Source: an uncultured Alphaproteobacteria bacterium
GTDB lineage: Bacteria; Pseudomonadota; Alphaproteobacteria; UBA828
Reading direction: 5' to 3'
Assembly (NCBI GenBank): GCA_913053235.1
Contig: CAJXFT010000017.1
Coordinates: forward strand, 1 to 32,077
Length of the DNA stretch: 32,077 nucleotides
The notes beneath the pieces are model-generated. The model was given only the letters and a program-made list of their open reading frames with translations, was not told the DNA's origin and did not search any database. This document shows positions 1,450 through 32,077 of the stretch, piece by piece. The position numbers and the translations under genes were made by a program. Position 1 is the first letter of the stretch; each line of letters starts with the position of its first letter.

Positions 1450-3465
1450 TTAACGCGGAAGCTCGCGGCGCGCCGCCTCTATCACGGCTTCGGCGGTAAT
1501 TGCGAAATGCGGATACAAATCGCCGGCCGGCGCGGAAGCGCCGAACCCGCGCATGCCGATCATGACGCCGTTTGCGCCGAGATAACGCTCCCAACCGAAG
1601 GAAATGGCGGCTTCGATGCCGATGCGCGGAACCTTGGCCGGCAGCACCTCGTCGCGGTACGCCTGCTCCTGCTCGTCGAACAGCTCCCAGCACGGCAGCG
1701 AGACGATTCGCGTCGGATGCCCCTCGCCCTGCAAAACCTCGCGCGCTTCCGCCGCGAGGGCGACTTCCGAACCGGTCGCGATGAGAACGATGCGCGGCGC
1801 GCCGCCCTCCGCTTCGTGCAGGATATAGCCGCCGCGCGCCGACTGATTTTCATCGCTATGCGCGGTGCGCTGGGCCGGCAGCCCCTGGCGGCTCAAGGCC
1901 AATACCGAGGGGCCGTCGCCGTTCTCGATCGCCGCCTGCCAGCATTCCGCCGTTTCCACCGCGTCGGCCGGGCGGAACAGTTTCAGATTGGGGATCGCGC
2001 GCAAGCTGGCCAGTTGCTCGACCGGCTGATGGGTCGGGCCGTCCTCGCCGAGGCCGATCGAATCATGCGTCATGACATAAACGACGCGCTGGCCCATCAG
2101 CGCCGACAATCTGATCGCCGGGCGGCAATAATCGGAGAAAATCAAGAATGTGCCGCCGTAAGGAATGCAGCCGCCATGCAGGGCCAAGCCGTTCATCGCC
2201 GCCGCCATGGCGTGCTCGCGAACGCCATAGTGAATATAACTGCCGCTGAAATCGCCCGCCGCAATTGCCTTCATCGCGGCGGTCCGGGTGCCGTTGGAGC
2301 CGCTCAGATCGGCCGAGCCGCCGACCATCTCGGGCAGCGTTTGAGAAAGCACTTCGAGCGTTTTCTGGCTCGCCACGCGGCTTGCGAGCTTGGGTTGCTC
2401 ATCCGCCCAGCCGCGCCTGAGTTCGACCAGGCCGGCGCTCCAATCGACCGGCAATTCGCCGCTCGATACGCGCTCGAATTCAGCGCGCAGCGTTGCATCG
2501 GCGGCTTCCAGCCTTTGCCGCCAGGCGGCATGCGCTTCGGCTTTTCGGACCCCGGCCTCGCGCCAGCGGGCGAGAATATCGGCCGGCACGACAAACGGCG
2601 GGTGCGGCCAGTCCAGAGCGTCGCGCGCGCCGGCGATTTCCTCGCCGCCGAGCGGCGCGCCGTGGCTCGCTTCGGAGCCCTCCTTGGTCGGCGCCCCGAA
2701 GCCGATTCTGGTGCGGCAGACGATCAGCGCCGGCTTGTCGGAATCCCCGGCCGCTTCGATCGCCCCGGCGATCGCCGCCGGGTCGTGGCCATCGGCTTCG
2801 AAGGCGTCCCAACCCGAGGCCCGGACGCGCCGCATGGCATCGTCCGAGAGAGTGAGGCCGGTGGCGCCGTCGATGGAAATTTCGTTGCTGTCATAAAGCA
2901 CGGTCAGCTTATCGAGCCGCAAATGGCCGGCCAGGGAAATCGCCTCATGGCTGATGCCCTCCATCAAATCGCCGTCGCCGGCCAATACATAAGTGCGGTG
3001 ATCGACGAGCGCGTCGGTGAAACGCGCCGCCAGCATGCGTTCGGCGAGCGCCATGCCGAGCGCCGTGGCGAGCCCCTGGCCGAGCGGGCCGGTGGTCATC
3101 TCGATGCCGCCGGCGGCGCCGTATTCCGGATGCCCGGCGGTGCGGCTGCCGAGCTGGCGGAAGCGGTGGATCTGGTCGCTATCGATATCCGGGTAGCCGC
3201 ACAGATAGAGCAGCGAATAGAGCAGCATCGAGCCATGCCCGGCGGACAGCACGAAGCGGTCGCGGTCGGGCCAATCGGGGTGCGCCGGATCATGTTTGAG
3301 AAATCGCGAGAACAGCACGGTGGCGACGTCGGCGGCGCCGAGCGGCATGCCCGGATGGCCTGATTTGGCGGCCTCCACCGCGTCCATGGAGAGCGCACGG
3401 ATGGCGTTGGCCATGTCGCGGTGTGATTTGTCCGCCTGATCGGAACGCGTGGCTGAGTTCGTCAT
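1450..3465 (-). CDS. tkt: Transketolase
   Basis: Transketolase moves two-carbon ketol units between sugar phosphates in the pentose phosphate and Calvin pathways, using thiamine diphosphate and a divalent metal in the cytoplasm. The 671-residue product has the usual length. Visible signatures are GHPGMPLGAADV (36–47), the ThDP/metal motif GDGDLMEGISHEA near residue 160, GLGEDGPTHQPVEQLASLR in the pyrimidine-binding domain, and the phosphate-site stretch YCRPAIRLSALM. The frame is open for 21 more codons upstream, but that stretch is Arg/Val-rich and unlike the family. ATG 3465 (MTNSATRSDQ) with a GAAAGAG site in front is the natural start. It is transcribed away from the zapA cluster, so 3466–3671 is a divergent intergenic region. 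No Calvin-cycle genes are nearby, so a housekeeping role is likeliest. Confidence 0.97.
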   Translation of the reverse strand: MTNSATRSDQADKSHRDMANAIRALSMDAVEAAKSGHPGMPLGAADVATVLFSRFLKHDPAHPDWPDRDRFVLSAGHGSMLLYSLLYLCGYPDIDSDQIHRFRQLGSRTAGHPEYGAAGGIEMTTGPLGQGLATALGMALAERMLAARFTDALVDHRTYVLAGDGDLMEGISHEAISLAGHLRLDKLTVLYDSNEISIDGATGLTLSDDAMRRVRASGWDAFEADGHDPAAIAGAIEAAGDSDKPALIVCRTRIGFGAPTKEGSEASHGAPLGGEEIAGARDALDWPHPPFVVPADILARWREAGVRKAEAHAAWRQRLEAADATLRAEFERVSSGELPVDWSAGLVELRRGWADEQPKLASRVASQKTLEVLSQTLPEMVGGSADLSGSNGTRTAAMKAIAAGDFSGSYIHYGVREHAMAAAMNGLALHGGCIPYGGTFLIFSDYCRPAIRLSALMGQRVVYVMTHDSIGLGEDGPTHQPVEQLASLRAIPNLKLFRPADAVETAECWQAAIENGDGPSVLALSRQGLPAQRTAHSDENQSARGGYILHEAEGGAPRIVLIATGSEVALAAEAREVLQGEGHPTRIVSLPCWELFDEQEQAYRDEVLPAKVPRIGIEAAISFGWERYLGANGVMIGMRGFGASAPAGDLYPHFAITAEAVIEAARRELPR

Positions 3466-12614: not shown

Positions 12615-13631
12615 ATGGGCAGGCGTGGCTGGATATTTTCGGGGGTGCTGCACGCCGGCGTGATCGCGGCGGCGGTGATCGGCCTGCCGTCCCTGTTCGA
12701 CGGCGAATCCGAATATGTCGAGGAGGCCATCTTTGTCGCGATGGTGGCGGAAGAGGACGCGGCGGGCGTGCAACAGCCCGATCCCGAGCCCGAGCCCGAG
12801 CCCGAACCTGTCGTCGAAGCGGAGCCCGAGCCGGAGCCGGTCGAGGTGAAGGCACTGGAGCCGCCGCCACCGCCGCCCGAGCCCGAGCCCGAGCCGGAGC
12901 CGGTATTCGCCGCCGCCGCGCCGGAACCGCCGCCGCCGCCGGAGCCCGAGCGAATTCCCGAGCCCGAGCCCGAACCTGTGGTCTCCGAGCCCGAGCCGGA
13001 GCCGGAGCCCGAGCCCGAGCCGGTGGCCGAGGAAGTGCCGCCGGAACCGCCGGAGGCCAAGCCGGAGCCCGAGCCCGAGCCGCAACCGGCGCCGCCCGCC
13101 GCCCAGGCGAGCGTGCCGAAGCCGCGCGTCAAGCCGGCGCCGGCGCCGCCCAGTTTCGATTCGCTGCTGAGAAGCGTCGCCGAAGCGGAGCCGGAGGAGG
13201 AGAAACCGCAACCGCAACCGGAGCCCGAGTTCGACGCGCTGCTGGCCAATGTGGCCGACGCCCCGGCGCCCGAACCGGAGGTCGAAAAGCGCGACCCGCC
13301 CAGGCGCACGCGGGCGATGATGGTGGCGATGGCCAATCAGATTGCCGCATTGATCAAGGCCCGCGTCGAGGCCAATTGGAGCGTGCCGGCGGGCATCCGT
13401 GACGCCAGCGAGCTGGTGGTCACCATCCGCATCCGTCTGGGGCGCGACGGCGCCGTGCAAAGAGCCGATATTCTCGACCTGAATTACGCCGAGGACGCGA
13501 ATTTTCGTACCATGGCGGAAAGCGCCCGGCGCGCCGTGTTAAAGGCGTCCCCGATCAAGGCGTTGCGGCGCTTCGGCGATGACTATAATGAGTGGCGTGT
13601 TGTGACGATGACATTTCGCCCGCCGGTGTAA
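12615..13631 (+). CDS. tolA: TolA with an extended Pro-Glu-rich linker
   Basis: TolA links the TolQR motor to Pal/TolB across the periplasm. The 338-residue product has a short cytoplasmic start and one membrane helix (about residues 7–24, [18 protein letters not shown]). A long Pro-Glu-rich linker then runs from about residue 55 to 215 in place of the Ala/Lys-rich helix of enterobacterial TolA. The C-terminal TonB-like domain (about 230–338) contains [29 protein letters not shown] and a final [13 protein letters not shown]. The linker contains one run of six prolines and one of five. Position between tolR and tolB confirms the call despite low similarity in the linker. Confidence 0.93.
12779..13086 (+). 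repeat. GAGCCC/GAGCCG hexamer-rich repeat inside tolA
   Basis: A degenerate array of six-base units GAGCCC, GAGCCG and GAACCG encodes (Pro-Glu)n. Proline runs are encoded at 12861–12878 (six codons) and 12927–12941 (five codons). The reverse strand gives a spurious Gly-Ser open frame. Slippage by whole units would alter linker length while keeping frame. Confidence 0.85.
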
Positions 13632-24859: not shown

Positions 24860-25315
24860 ATGTTTCACTGCTATCTCGATGATTTCACCACGGGCTCGAT
24901 TTTCGAGACCGAGGGAAAAACCCTGAGCGAGGCCGAGATTCTCGATTTCGCCTTCAAATACGACCCGCAGCCTTTTCACATGGATGTCGAGGCGGCGAAA
25001 GAAGGCCCCTTCGGCGGCCTCATCGCGAGCGGCCTGCATACCATGGCGATCGGCTTGCGGCTGATACTCCAGGCGCAAATATTCGCGCCCGGCGCCAGTT
25101 TGGGCTCACCCGGGATAGACGAAATACGCTGGCTGAAGCCGGTGCTGCCGGGCGATACGTTGCGCGTGCGGGGCGAGACCCTCAAAGTCACGCCGTCACG
25201 CTCCAAGCCCGATCGCGGCATCGTCAAAATTCGCACGGCGATCTTCAACCAGCATGGCGAAGAGGTTATGAGCATGCTCAGCATGCAGATTGTCAAACGC
25301 CGGGCCGCCGATTGA
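24860..25315 (+). CDS. MaoC-family hot-dog dehydratase
   Basis: The 151-residue product is a single hot-dog domain of the MaoC/(R)-specific enoyl-CoA hydratase type. It has FKYDPQPFHMDVEAAKEGPF near 33–52 and FGGLIASGLHTMAIG, in which the Asp…His/Ser-Gly-x-His pattern supplies the oxyanion and catalytic residues. The C-terminal strand pair is VLPGDTLRVRGET. The substrate is unknown. ATG 24860 has a strong GGGAGGGGG site and gives the family N-terminus; the upstream frame from 24818 is probably not translated. Its stop lies 7 bp before ctaA, so co-expression is likely, though the biochemical link to heme A is not evident. Confidence 0.88.
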   Translation: MFHCYLDDFTTGSIFETEGKTLSEAEILDFAFKYDPQPFHMDVEAAKEGPFGGLIASGLHTMAIGLRLILQAQIFAPGASLGSPGIDEIRWLKPVLPGDTLRVRGETLKVTPSRSKPDRGIVKIRTAIFNQHGEEVMSMLSMQIVKRRAAD

Positions 25316-25322
25316 GAGACTG

Positions 25323-26363
25323 ATGACATCAGCGCCCAACCGGGAGCGCGCGATCGCCGTCTGGCTGTTCGCCCTGTGCACCCTGGTCTTCGCCATGGTC
25401 TTGCTGGGCGGCGTGACGCGCCTCACCCATTCCGGTCTGTCCATGGTCGATTGGCGCCCGCTGGTCGGCGCCCTGCCGCCGATGAGCGAAGCGGCCTGGC
25501 AGGGCGTGTTTCAGCAATATCAGGAATTTCCCGAATACCAGAAGATCAATTTCGGCATGACCCTGGCCGAGTTCAAACGGATTTTTCTGTTCGAATATTC
25601 TCACCGCGTTCTCGGCCGGGCGATCGGCCTGGCCTTCGCTTTGCCGTTTCTCTATTTCCTCCTGCGCCGGCGCCTGTCGTGGCGCTTGGCGCCCCGGCTC
25701 GGCGTGCTGTTCGTGCTTGGCGCGCTACAGGGGCTGCTCGGCTGGTACATGGTTCAGAGCGGGCTGGTCGAGCGTCCCGATGTCAGCCCCTACCGCCTGA
25801 CCGCGCATCTCGGCCTGGCGGTCGTCATTTATGGCTACATGCTGTGGCTGGCGATGTCCCTGCTTCGGCCGGCGCGGCGTTCGCTGCCGTCGGCAGGCCA
25901 AAATCGAGTGTTGCGGATAGCAGCGCCGATTCTGGCGGCGCTGGTGTTTCTCACCATTTTGTCGGGCGGCTTCGTCGCCGGCAACGATGCCGGCCTCGCC
26001 TATAACAGCTTTCCCCTGATGGATGGCCGCTTCGTGCCGGCCGATATCTTCAGGTTTGAGCCATGGTGGCGGAATTTTTTCGAGAACCTGCCCCTGGTGC
26101 AGCTCGATCACCGCCTGCTCGCCCTGCTCGCCGTCATTGCCTCGGTTATATTGTGGCTAGCCAGTCTGGGTCAGCCGCTTACTGCGGGCGCGCGCCGCGC
26201 CTTTGCCGCCCTCGCGGCGATGGCCGTGGCCCAGCTCGCACTCGGCATCGCCACATTGTTGCTGTTCGTTCCGGTGCCGCTCGGCGCCGCGCACCAGGCC
26301 GGCGCGCTGCTGACTTTCAGCATGGCGCTGTGGACCTGTCATGAACTGTCGAGAAGCGATTAG
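25323..26363 (+). CDS. ctaA: Heme A synthase (COX15/CtaA)
   Basis: CtaA oxidises heme O to heme A for aa3-type cytochrome oxidase. The 346-residue product has about eight membrane helices in two four-helix halves. It carries the family's GGVTRLTHSGLSMVDWRPL (28–46), the EYSHRVLGRAIGL histidine helix, LTAHLGLAVVIYG, QLDHRLLALLAV and AAHQAGALLTFS, that is, the expected heme-ligand histidines. The WRPLVGALPP segment and the following loop place it in the proteobacterial/mitochondrial COX15 type. ATG 25323 follows a GAGAG site. The TAG stop is the first three bases of a palindromic repeat. Confidence 0.95.
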   Translation: MTSAPNRERAIAVWLFALCTLVFAMVLLGGVTRLTHSGLSMVDWRPLVGALPPMSEAAWQGVFQQYQEFPEYQKINFGMTLAEFKRIFLFEYSHRVLGRAIGLAFALPFLYFLLRRRLSWRLAPRLGVLFVLGALQGLLGWYMVQSGLVERPDVSPYRLTAHLGLAVVIYGYMLWLAMSLLRPARRSLPSAGQNRVLRIAAPILAALVFLTILSGGFVAGNDAGLAYNSFPLMDGRFVPADIFRFEPWWRNFFENLPLVQLDHRLLALLAVIASVILWLASLGQPLTAGARRAFAALAAMAVAQLALGIATLLLFVPVPLGAAHQAGALLTFSMALWTCHELSRSD

Positions 26364-26465
26364 AGCAAATCCCGAGCAGGTGGAATCACCTGCGACGACG
26401 CATTTGCTTATACTCCAAAATGTTAGAGCATCTCGCGTGAGCGCATGCGAACGTGAAACGCTCTA
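26361..26465. repeat. 105-bp palindromic intergenic repeat with TAGAGC termini
   Basis: The element begins TAGAGCA (26361) and ends GCTCTA (26460–26465). It contains two hairpins. The left has AGCAAAT (26364–26370) with ATTTGCT (26402–26408), enclosing GCAGGTG/CACCTGC (26376–26382/26387–26393) around a GAAT loop. The right has TAGAGC (26424–26429) with GCTCTA (26460–26465). It fills the whole gap between the convergent genes ctaA and the TVP38-family gene, and its ends supply both TAG stops. Similar TAGAGC-bounded palindromes with a GGTGGAATCACC core are, as I recall, dispersed in alphaproteobacterial genomes. It may act as a bidirectional terminator. Confidence 0.8.
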
Positions 26466-27110
26466 GCGGCGTATATATTTGATCATGCGCGGCATGAAGG
26501 CGATCAGCGCCAGCGCGGCGAAGCCGAACAGGCCGATCTCCACCCAATTGTCGCGCCCCGACGCCGCTTCCATGCCGATATGGCCGAGCCAGGAATAGGC
26601 GATGGTCGCCGGCGCCATGAAAATCAGCGTGGCGGCGATGAATTGAAGAAGCGAAATGCGCGACACGCCGAAAAAGTAATTAAGCGGCGCGTAGGGAAAA
26701 ATAGGAATGAGACGGGTTACGGCGACGAAACGCCAGCCCTCGCGCGCCGCGCCGTCAATGATGCGCGAGACGCGTGGCCCGGCATGGGCGGAAATCCATT
26801 CGGCGGCGACATAACGCGCGATGAGGAAGGCCAGTATCGCGCCCAGCGTGCCGCCGCCGAGGCTGTAGACGGCGCCCCATACGGGCCCGAAAAGCGCGCC
26901 GGCCGCCAGCGTGAACAGACTCGCGGGCATAAAAAATATCGCCGCCACGCAATAGGCGGCGATGAACAGCAGTGGCGCCAGGATGCCAAAATCCTCAATC
27001 CAGCTTTTGAGCGCGTCGACGGAGAAATGGCTCCAATGGGCGATAACGGCGCCGACCCCGGCGGCGATCAGCAGGATGACCAGAGAACGCAGAATGGCGG
27101 TGCGGCTCAT
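26463..27110 (-). CDS. TVP38/TMEM64-family inner-membrane protein
   Basis: The 215-residue product has about five or six membrane segments and the SNARE-associated (DedA/VTT) core: FFMPASLFTLAAGALFGPVW, GGGTLGAILAFLIARYVA, and RLIPIFPYAPLNYFFGVSRI with the conserved Arg and Pro residues. The family is linked to lipid scrambling or membrane homeostasis; the specific role is unknown. The open frame extends far upstream, but that part is the shadow of the transporter gene. ATG 27110 overlaps the transporter stop as ATGA, showing tight coupling. The TAG stop lies in the right end of the palindromic repeat. Confidence 0.9.
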   Translation of the reverse strand: MSRTAILRSLVILLIAAGVGAVIAHWSHFSVDALKSWIEDFGILAPLLFIAAYCVAAIFFMPASLFTLAAGALFGPVWGAVYSLGGGTLGAILAFLIARYVAAEWISAHAGPRVSRIIDGAAREGWRFVAVTRLIPIFPYAPLNYFFGVSRISLLQFIAATLIFMAPATIAYSWLGHIGMEAASGRDNWVEIGLFGFAALALIAFMPRMIKYIRR

Positions 27111-28354
27111 GATGCAAATTTCCGCATAAATCCGGGGATGACGCCGGCGCCGACCTCGAGGCCGAACAGCGGGCGCAGATAAATGCCGGCGAAAGTGCCG
27201 AGAAGACCGAAAACCAGCCACAGCCAACCGTGCGGGCTGCCCGACACGACGCCGCTGAAAAAGGCGCCGATATTGCAGCCGAAGGCGAGGCGCGCGCCGT
27301 AGCCCAACAGCAGCCCGCCGATGATGGCGGCGGCGAGCGAGCGCGGCGGAATTCGCATCAGCGGCGCCAAGCGCCCGGCCAGCGAAGCGGCCAGCGCGGC
27401 ACCGATGACGATGCCGATATTCATCACCGATGTAACATCCTGCTCGATGCCGCTGTCCAGCATTCGTGCCGGGAAGGGCCATTGCCAGAACGTCCAATCC
27501 CTAACGTCGAGGCCGGCGGCATCGGCGACCTTGGCGCCCCACAGCGTATAGCCCCAGGTGATGCCCCACGGCCGCCCGGCGACCAGCAGGGTGGCGATAT
27601 TGAGAAACGCCAGGGCGAGCGCGCCCCATAGCAGCGGCCAGCGGCCAAACAGCAGGCGCTGGAAGAACTCTCCCCGAGTGGCGATCCCGGCGCTCTTCTC
27701 CAGCCCGCCATGGCGCTTGCGCTCGATGCGGATGGTCACCACGGCAAGCGCCGCGATGAACGCCAACTGCATGGCCAGGCCGCCGGGCCAGCCGATTTCG
27801 CCGTACAGCGAGACGGCGGCGAATTTCGGCTGCGACAGCCACCATGGCAGATGCGCCGAACCGGCGAGCGAACCGGCGACGAAAGCGATCAGGGTTATCA
27901 GCATGCGCGTACTTCCGCCGCCGACGGTAAAGAGCGTTCCCGAAGCGCAGCCGCCGCCGAGCTGCATGCCGACGCCAAACAGAAAAGCGCCGGCCATCAC
28001 GGAGGTGCCGACCGGCGCCAGGGCGCCGCTCAAGGATTGGCCGAAAATACTGCCGCCGGCGAGGAGGGGCGCGAAAACCACGCTGGCCGTGGCCAGCATG
28101 ATCAGTTGCGCGCGCACGCCGGCGCCCCGGCCTTCGACGAGGAAGCGGCGATAGGCGGCGGTGAAGCCGAACAATGCGTGGTAAAGCGATATGCCGAGCG
28201 CGCCGCCGATGAGGTAGAGCGCGCCCTGGCGCCCGCCGACGGCGGCGCTCAAATAAATGATGCCGCCGGCCAACATTAAAAGCGCCACGCCGAGCGGCAG
28301 AAATTGCGTCTGTCCGGGCGTCAGCCAGGAAATTCGTCTCGCCATGGCGGTCAT
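27107..28354 (-). CDS. YeeE/YedE-family sulfur transporter (TsuA-like)
   Basis: The 415-residue protein has many hydrophobic segments in two related halves. Each half carries the YeeE/YedE cysteine motif: GVGMQLGGGCASGTLFTVGG in the first and GYGARLAFGCNIGAFFSGV in the second. Known members (TsuA) import thiosulfate through a relay of conserved cysteines in the inner membrane. The exact sulfur substrate here is inference. The start is uncertain: ATG 28354 and ATG 28345 are both possible, without a clear ribosome-binding site, and a longer GTG frame begins at 28390. It is coupled by ATGA to the TVP38-family gene. No rhodanese or TusA gene is seen beside it. Confidence 0.88.
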   Translation of the reverse strand: MTAMARRISWLTPGQTQFLPLGVALLMLAGGIIYLSAAVGGRQGALYLIGGALGISLYHALFGFTAAYRRFLVEGRGAGVRAQLIMLATASVVFAPLLAGGSIFGQSLSGALAPVGTSVMAGAFLFGVGMQLGGGCASGTLFTVGGGSTRMLITLIAFVAGSLAGSAHLPWWLSQPKFAAVSLYGEIGWPGGLAMQLAFIAALAVVTIRIERKRHGGLEKSAGIATRGEFFQRLLFGRWPLLWGALALAFLNIATLLVAGRPWGITWGYTLWGAKVADAAGLDVRDWTFWQWPFPARMLDSGIEQDVTSVMNIGIVIGAALAASLAGRLAPLMRIPPRSLAAAIIGGLLLGYGARLAFGCNIGAFFSGVVSGSPHGWLWLVFGLLGTFAGIYLRPLFGLEVGAGVIPGFMRKFAS

Positions 28355-30811: not shown

Positions 30812-31045
30812 TCTCGAATTGCGCGGTTCCGTTGGCTGAGTCCACAGATTGCCCTCAGAGCCTTGATTTATGGTTAAGATATGGCATTTAGGCGCGGCGG
30901 CTTTGCAAGGATTACCTCTTTCGGGTAAGGTTTTGCCGTCGCATCCGAGCGATTTCCGGGAATCGTGCCGTCTCGATATGCGTTCACGATGTGCCGGATG
31001 CCGGCTCGGGCGCGGCCCGGACTGGGGAGAGGAACAATTGCGCCT

Positions 31046-32044
31046 GTGCGTGTTGTGGGAATCAGCGCCCTGATCGCCGGTATCGGCGTGATAATCGCCC
31101 TCGTGATCTACCAGGGCGCCGGCGACGTCGCCGCCGCCATCGCGGCGGTCGGCTGGGGTCTGGTGTTCGTTATCGTCTCGCGGATGGTACCGATTGCCCT
31201 TGACGGCTATGTCTGGCGTTTCCTTTTTCCCCGAGAGACGCCGCGCCCCGTCGCCTTGTTGTTGTGGGCGCGCTGGATCGGCGAGGGCGTGAATACGCTG
31301 ATGCCGGCATTTCAGGTGGGCGGCGCGTTGGTGCGCACGAGGCTTCTCGTCATGCGCGGAATCCCGGGCAAGATTGTCGGCGCCAGCGTCGTCGTCGACC
31401 TCACCCTGAGCACGCTGACGCAACTTCTGTTCACGCTTGTCGGCGTTGGCCTGTTGTTGGCGCGTTACGGCGACAACGATATCGCCCGGGGCGCCGGCGC
31501 CGGCGTCGGGCTGGGCATGATTCTGGTCGTTGGCTTTTGCGTATTTCAGCATCGCGGTCTGTTCGGCTTTCTGGTCGGCCTGGTATCGCGCGTCGCCAGG
31601 GGCCGCGATTGGGTCAAGGCGGTGGGCGGCGCCGAAGAGTTGGACAAAGCCATACGCTTGCTTTACCGGCGGCGCTGGGCTTTGACCTTCAACGCGGCGG
31701 GACAAATGCTGGCCTGGGCCTTGGGCGCCGCGGAAATTTGGCTGGCGCTCTATTTCATGGACATACCGATCACCATCGCCGATGCGCTGCTGTTGGAAAG
31801 CCTTATTCTGGCGGTGCGGGCGGCGGCATTCTTCGTTCCGGGCGCGCTTGGCGTTCAGGAAGGCGCTTTCGTTCTCATCGGCGCCGTCATCGGCCTGGGG
31901 CCGGAGGTGGCGCTGGCGCTTTCGCTCATCAAACGGGTGCGCGAGCTGGTGATTGGCGCGCCGGCGCTGCTCGCCTGGCAACTGGCGGAAGGCAAACATC
32001 TGTTTTCGCCGCGGCCCATTTTGGGGCGCTCAAGCGGCGATTAG
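31046..32044 (+). CDS. hpnL: HpnL-like integral membrane protein (lysylphosphatidylglycerol-synthase TM/UPF0104 family)
   Basis: The 332-residue product has about seven or eight membrane helices and the UPF0104/LPG-synthase transmembrane fold. Signatures are MPAFQVGGALVRTRLLVMRG and, near the end, FVPGALGVQEGAFVLIG followed by LALSLIKRVRELVIG. That ending is characteristic of the hopanoid-associated HpnL group (TIGR03476), proposed to act in lipid transport. The start is uncertain: GTG 31046 gives the usual N-terminus with GAGAGG 13 bp upstream. ATGs at 30989 and 30998 and GTG 30965 are in frame but lack a ribosome-binding site. It is divergent from the EAL gene across about 230 bp. The TAG stop lies in a repeat motif shared with ctaA. 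Confidence 0.8.
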   Translation: MRVVGISALIAGIGVIIALVIYQGAGDVAAAIAAVGWGLVFVIVSRMVPIALDGYVWRFLFPRETPRPVALLLWARWIGEGVNTLMPAFQVGGALVRTRLLVMRGIPGKIVGASVVVDLTLSTLTQLLFTLVGVGLLLARYGDNDIARGAGAGVGLGMILVVGFCVFQHRGLFGFLVGLVSRVARGRDWVKAVGGAEELDKAIRLLYRRRWALTFNAAGQMLAWALGAAEIWLALYFMDIPITIADALLLESLILAVRAAAFFVPGALGVQEGAFVLIGAVIGLGPEVALALSLIKRVRELVIGAPALLAWQLAEGKHLFSPRPILGRSSGD

Positions 32045-32077
32045 AGCATGTCAGGCGGCGAGATCCTCTCCGCCGAG
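32037..32077. repeat. Second copy of the GATTAGAGCA repeat end with hairpin, cut by the window edge
   Basis: GCGATTAGAGCA (32037–32048) is identical over 12 bases to 26356–26367 and again contains the TAG stop of the upstream gene. It is followed by a hairpin, GGCGG with a bulge then GAGA (32054–32063), closing on TCTCCGCC (32067–32074). The inner sequence differs from the 26361 element, so only the terminal motif is shared. Confidence 0.6.

Follow-up and report, generated by a model that had tools for sequence, protein, structure and literature searches.

The insertion sequence IS630 reportedly targets the TA within CTAG, as Tenzen and Ohtsubo are said to have described in 1991. Both IS630 and ISY100 insert into TA and duplicate it (PMC2170065). 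The 107-bp repeat RUP also inserts at TA and was linked to IS630-Spn1 (PMC2229807), and in pneumococcus the spacers of convergent genes hold an excess of RUP, BOX, SPRITE and IS elements (PMC3049150). Thirty-six pneumococcal genes have their stop codon inside a BOX element, and comparison with orthologues gave no strong evidence that they are truncated (PMC3049150). GTAG-tagged repeats are described as one large class of REP sequences (PMC3733652).

The DNA analyzed here (the window, 32,077 nucleotides) is the entire contig C17 of a MAG of 3.9 Mb in 363 contigs. The nearest named relatives of its CtaA were found in uncultivated Alphaproteobacteria labelled PW3 and in Rhodospirillaceae SI073_bin108. 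A repeat between two convergent genes, and a short resemblance to it further downstream, involve the following features:

25290-26363, plus strand: ctaA (heme A synthase, COX15-CtaA by Pfam), native C-terminus ..HELSRSD
26361-26465, plus strand: predicted MITE (miniature mobile element) of the IS630 type, 105 bp with the two TA target copies counted in
26361-26418, plus strand: unit A, the first hairpin (58 bp), which other copies carry as tandem repeats
26424-26465, plus strand: unit B, 42-bp palindrome TAGAGC..GCTCTA, second hairpin
26361-26362, no strand: TA target duplication, left copy; with the element's G at 26363 it forms the ctaA stop TAG
26464-26465, no strand: TA target duplication, right copy; with the element's C at 26463 it forms the minus-strand TVP38 stop TAG
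26463-27497, minus strand: TVP38/VTT-domain membrane protein, native C-terminus ..KYIRR (KYIRK and KYFRK in congeners)
30965-32044, plus strand: hpnL-like (LPG_synthase_TM) gene with a native TAG and no element copy
32052-32077, minus strand: 3' end of a convergent class I lysS (..GEDLAA-TGA), which leaves no room for a repeat after hpnL

Elsewhere in the window, a long Pro-Glu-type codon repeat run (CCCGAGCC) occupied positions 12759-13280 within the ORF 12615-13631.

The assignment of the element at 26361-26465 was based on its own sequence, on homologous copies in its own and congeneric genomes, and on empty sites. As reported in the initial annotation, the 105-bp element started with TAGAGC, ended with GCTCTA and closed both neighbors in frame: the ctaA stop TAG (26361-26363) was formed by its first three bases, and the TVP38 stop TAG on the minus strand (CTA, 26463-26465) by its last three. 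The annotation described it as a palindromic repeat, but the element consists of two adjacent hairpins, A and B, rather than one simple palindrome. Both strands of the two hairpins folded about 4 standard deviations better than shuffled sequences (z about -4). One pair of hairpin B was changed from C-G to G-C in 11 of 36 copies (columns 77 and 94 of alignment A1), and these compensatory changes could mean either that the pairing is being preserved for some purpose or just that two subfamilies exist. The signature of an intrinsic terminator, a hairpin followed by a T run, was absent inside the element; the sole weak terminator match (26458-26472) straddled its edge and drew on flanking sequence. 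A search of Rfam with the element gave no match at E up to 1.

A blastn-type search resulted in 41 matches within the genome of origin, tandem A units included. Across 60 searched genomes, for which per-genome copy numbers are to be read as "at least", the element was found in its own genome and in four of the five congeneric MAGs, and in none of the 54 genomes outside the genus. From 78 fetched stretches and the window, 77 elements and fragments were examined, some of which were fragmentary or located at contig ends of the MAGs. The family members were about 104-105 bp long, multi-copy, dispersed and without a transposase gene. No described repeat matching the family was found in searches of the literature, and a further candidate, a Rhizobiales RIME-type repeat, was dropped because the family was found only in one uncultivated genus and those searches turned up no match. 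Tandem arrays of two or three A units preceding a single B unit were present in L162, L166, L161, L163 and L160. Many contigs of the own bin started or stopped in or near an element (C13, C81, C94, C120, C154, C163, C255, C256 and C277), and the element therefore probably breaks the assembly; C154 and C277 resembled the halves of a single locus.

The C-termini of 17 element-bearing genes were searched in the genus, with ctaA treated separately, and 60 orthologue 3' ends were fetched. Of these, 47 terminated at the very residue homologous to the element-bearing end and 59 no more than 5 residues away from it, using TAG (33), TAA (17) or TGA (10). Empty sites with a good nucleotide alignment carried a single TA that was duplicated when filled, which could be followed at base level for L279 and L336. 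An empty site in the congener G004 read caatgac-TA-gcggtactggacaaa, whereas the filled site in the own genome (G000) read gcggc-[TA-GAGC..GCTC-TA]-gcggtactggacaaa. Likewise, the empty ctaA end of the congener G002 read gagat-TA-gcggcg (with the stop as gagat-TAG-cggcg) and the filled one in the window gcgat-[TA..TA]-gcggcg. As most orthologues end at the same residue and the empty sites carry a single TA, the stops existed before insertion. This refutes the proposal of the initial annotation that native C-termini had been replaced; the comparison it suggested, with homologues that lack the repeat, yielded the same end residues. Joining the window flanks gave GAT-TAG-CGG, in which one TA yields TAG for ctaA and TAA for TVP38. 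The C-terminus of the latter, KYIRR in the window, was KYFRK and KYIRK in L072 and L073. The ctaA gene of G002 had a different convergent neighbor, a putative YeeE/YedE-like gene, that also ended ..RR-TAA on the same TA.

A pyrimidine preceded the TA at 58 of 61 left ends, and a purine followed it at 42 of 45 right ends. Complete copies resided in YTAR in 35 of 40 cases, compared to 19% of the non-coding TAs in the same stretches (p about 1e-20), and in CTAG in 22 of 40, compared to 3.5% (p about 7e-22). The base-level empty sites showed that the target duplication is the 2-bp TA. A 4-bp YTAR duplication is excluded, because it requires equal outer bases and 18 of the 40 complete copies violate this. 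In one copy (L195, 1264-1368) a T followed the right TA (CTAT); as the flanks read CTA-T, the stop of its left gene may truly be supplied by the element.

Genes were called heuristically with a codon-usage score trained on the fetched stretches. Counting in-frame stops against chance, as the initial annotation had advised, showed that, among the ends to which a gene could be assigned, 36 of 46 on the left and 16 of 33 on the right had a TAG that coincided exactly with the in-frame stop of a coding ORF; the coincidence of element ends with in-frame stops was thus far above random phase (about 1/3 expected). At least one end served as an in-frame gene stop in 30 of 40 complete copies, so that the earlier statement that the elements sit or insert precisely at gene ends was descriptively right and applies genus-wide. 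Both convergent neighbors were closed by 7 of the 40 complete copies, and 23 were located between convergent genes. For these, spacers were rebuilt and their TAs counted: given that insertion took place in a convergent spacer, and with the genes called heuristically, 21 of 23 copies were at a stop TA, against 20.4 expected from a uniform choice among spacer TAs. Since the two values match, no extra targeting of stop codons is needed; the spacers are mostly shorter than 40 bp, and usually their only TA is that of the stop. In G001, G002 and G004, the stop of a gene ending in ..YFMYRA[VL]AL* was occupied by an element; the one in G001 had the reverse orientation, which points to separate insertions or to an inversion. 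The ends of further genes were occupied in two species, for instance L226/L158 with L175, and L220 with L195.

The hpnL-like gene had been proposed to be closed by the same repeat. The identical 12-base sequence GCGATTAGAGCA on which this was based is indeed present at the ends of ctaA (26356-26367) and hpnL (32037-32048), but only about 14 bases at the latter agree with one element end, and the repeat-free junctions of congeners natively read GCGAT-TAR. In the window, hpnL is followed by TAG-AGCATG-TCA-GGCGGCGAG, where TCA (32052-32054) is the stop of the convergent lysS. In the window, lysS is reached 7 bp downstream of the hpnL stop, and the spacer separating the two stops was put at 5-6 bp in G002, G004 and the window. 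The junctions without repeat read gcgat-TAG-cgctg-TCA (G002, hpnL ending ..SSSD) and gcggcgat-TAA-gatcg-TCA (G004). A second, about 80% identical hpnL copy in the own bin also lacked the repeat (gcgat-TAG-gcctgtcactgg-TCA). This second hpnL-lysS junction (L237, G000:C177, aligned to window positions 31978-32077) suggests a co-binned strain or species. GCGAT and the stop are native, and the extra AGCA match at hpnL is attributed to chance. A remnant of an element after microhomology deletion was considered and set aside, as the short spacers in G002, G004 and the window make chance the simpler explanation. The TAGAGCA motifs at 3206 and 3218 lay within a long ORF and were regarded as chance occurrences.

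A candidate source of the transposition activity was present in G002 as an IS630-family insertion sequence of about 1.05 kb (L246, 868-1919) with HTH_Tnp_IS630, HTH_32 and DDE_3 domains. Its ends, CTAGAGCGTTTC..GAAACGCTCTAG, showed the TAGAGC of the element, with TA on both sides. The transposase was encoded in two frames that met at a run of eight A, which may reflect programmed frameshifting. This insertion sequence was itself found where a hydratase-like gene ends, in frame with that gene. Identity to its ends extended over 12 nt in 2 copies, one of them the right end in the window, where unit B read inward starts with TAGAGCGTTTCA, and over 6 nt in 35; for most copies the terminal repeat in common is thus only 6 nt long, TA included. 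A terminal-repeat search across the genus found the full end pair only in G002. The one near-complete IS630 copy found was in this congener, and the home bin contained only remnants, with related but internally different ends (TAGAGCGGATTC). The target, the duplication and a short end motif make a good case for the IS630 kind, and we infer that an IS630-family transposase, with a partner such as the G002 copy, is the mobilizing enzyme. The DDE_Tnp_1 elements found in the genus had no TAGAGC ends. Two copies, L169 (3034-3287) and L220 (3010-3167), were adjoined almost directly by the same sequence, AATCGACATTCA, which in L169 continues into what reads like the end of an IS5-type transposase.

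The element is very probably a non-autonomous MITE of the IS630/Tc1-mariner kind that rebuilds pre-existing stops at TA targets. A transposase acting in trans would insert it at a TA, mostly in CTAG or another YTAR, and the TA would be duplicated. The mobile part would be GAGC..GCTC, such that TA and element together read TAG on either strand. Where the target TA opens a TAG or TAA stop codon, the stop of each gene would remain at the same residue. The element thus seems to end both neighbors while their proteins are unchanged, because TA and the terminal G rebuild the stop. The ancestral junction of ctaA and TVP38 was most likely GAT-TAG-CGG, with the TA common to both convergent stops (TAG on the plus strand, TAA on the minus strand), and one insertion left TAG on both strands because this single TA served both. 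Copies would survive mainly in short convergent spacers, where the stop codon is usually the sole TA, and we infer that purifying selection rather than a terminator function accounts for this survival. The TA duplication, YTAR target, unchanged C-termini and a placement that follows TA availability are all direct observations.

Other origins and roles were weighed against this explanation. A recruited gene-end module, combining a stop with a bidirectional transcription terminator and selected at convergent gene ends, is unlikely: the position of most complete copies at gene 3' ends, more than half of them between convergent genes, the two strong hairpins on both strands and the compensatory changes in hairpin B would fit it, but the element lacks a hairpin with a T run, its placement at stops equals the expectation from TA availability, and the native stops are older than the insertion. 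Moreover, pneumococcal RUP, BOX and IS elements have the same convergent bias, which was attributed to tolerance (PMC3049150). The role as a terminator proposed in the initial annotation is accordingly unsupported, even though the hairpins fold well; that as a stop holds in so far as TA and the first G give a stop codon, but this stop was there before insertion. A scenario in which the element took the place of native C-termini, or cut them short, and truly supplies new stops could apply to the left gene of L195, but is highly improbable given the shared end residues of the orthologues and the joined flanks, which read YTAR in 35 of 40 complete copies and are compatible with a prior TAA or TAG. 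Overall, the observation in the initial annotation was partly confirmed and its interpretation partly supported.

With regard to the type of element, an IS5-family MITE with a YTAR target and a 4-bp duplication, like MITEPsy1, is improbable, somewhat more so than the gene-end module. The CTAG/YTAR target resembles that of MITEPsy1 (PMC3189936), and an apparent IS5-type transposase end adjoins L169, with the same 12 bases after L220. However, 18 of 40 copies are at odds with a 4-bp duplication, and the TAGAGC ends are carried by the IS630 element and not by the DDE_Tnp_1 elements found in the genus; these data would be compatible with IS5 groups that duplicate a 2-bp TA. A REP/RAYT-type palindrome, related to the Y1 transposases of IS200/IS605-like elements, would account for palindromic, extragenic units in a tandem A-A-B mosaic; it is about as improbable as the replacement of C-termini, since the element has a TA duplication and terminal inverted repeats and shows no GTAG tag at the aligned ends.

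As an IS630-type MITE, the element reduces the closure of two genes by one repeat to a simple mechanism with base-level evidence. A stop codon encoded by a repeat need not mean an altered protein, and annotation pipelines or readers can mistake gene-end repeats for a terminator module or for the replacement of a C-terminus. A stop that restores itself is a general idea for TA-targeting elements. It is conceivable, though rather doubtful, that the terminal G beside TA is an adaptation that makes insertion into TAA or TAG stops silent and turns stops into safe harbors. If so, these harbors would include the single TA common to overlapping convergent stops, and stop-codon occupancy would be a general signature of IS630/mariner-type elements with ends beginning with G.

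Several known systems share parts of this organization. Correia/NEMIS and ERIC elements are about 100-155 bp long, with terminal TA, target duplication, terminal repeats and hairpin transcripts (PMC2229807). They occur in other hosts, and the terminal repeats of Correia are longer. To our knowledge, neither is related in sequence to the present element. MITEPsy1 of Pseudomonas syringae measures 100 nt and inserts into CTAG or YTAA (PMC3189936), but has a 4-nt duplication and a proposed origin from the IS5 family (ISPsy2), whereas the duplication here is 2 nt (TA). IS630 and ISY100 of the Tc1-mariner family share the TA duplication, and IS630 the preference for a TA located in CTAG, but they are autonomous with their own transposase gene, which the present element lacks. 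BOX elements of Streptococcus pneumoniae likewise contain gene stop codons inside the repeat, but are larger and modular, and the counterpart used for comparing their ends was ISSpn2, not an IS630 element (PMC3049150). RUP is similar in that both repeats are about 105-107 bp, non-coding, targeted to TA and in excess between convergent genes; RUP shares terminal repeats with an IS630-family element, and the present element probably does too (PMC2229807, PMC3049150). The two differ in that their sequences are unrelated and that the present element, hosted by an uncultivated genus of Alphaproteobacteria, is a two-hairpin mosaic of A and B with tandem A units, located mostly at stop codons. The element family is a further case of RUP-like repeats, in which the use of stop codons is unusually frequent.
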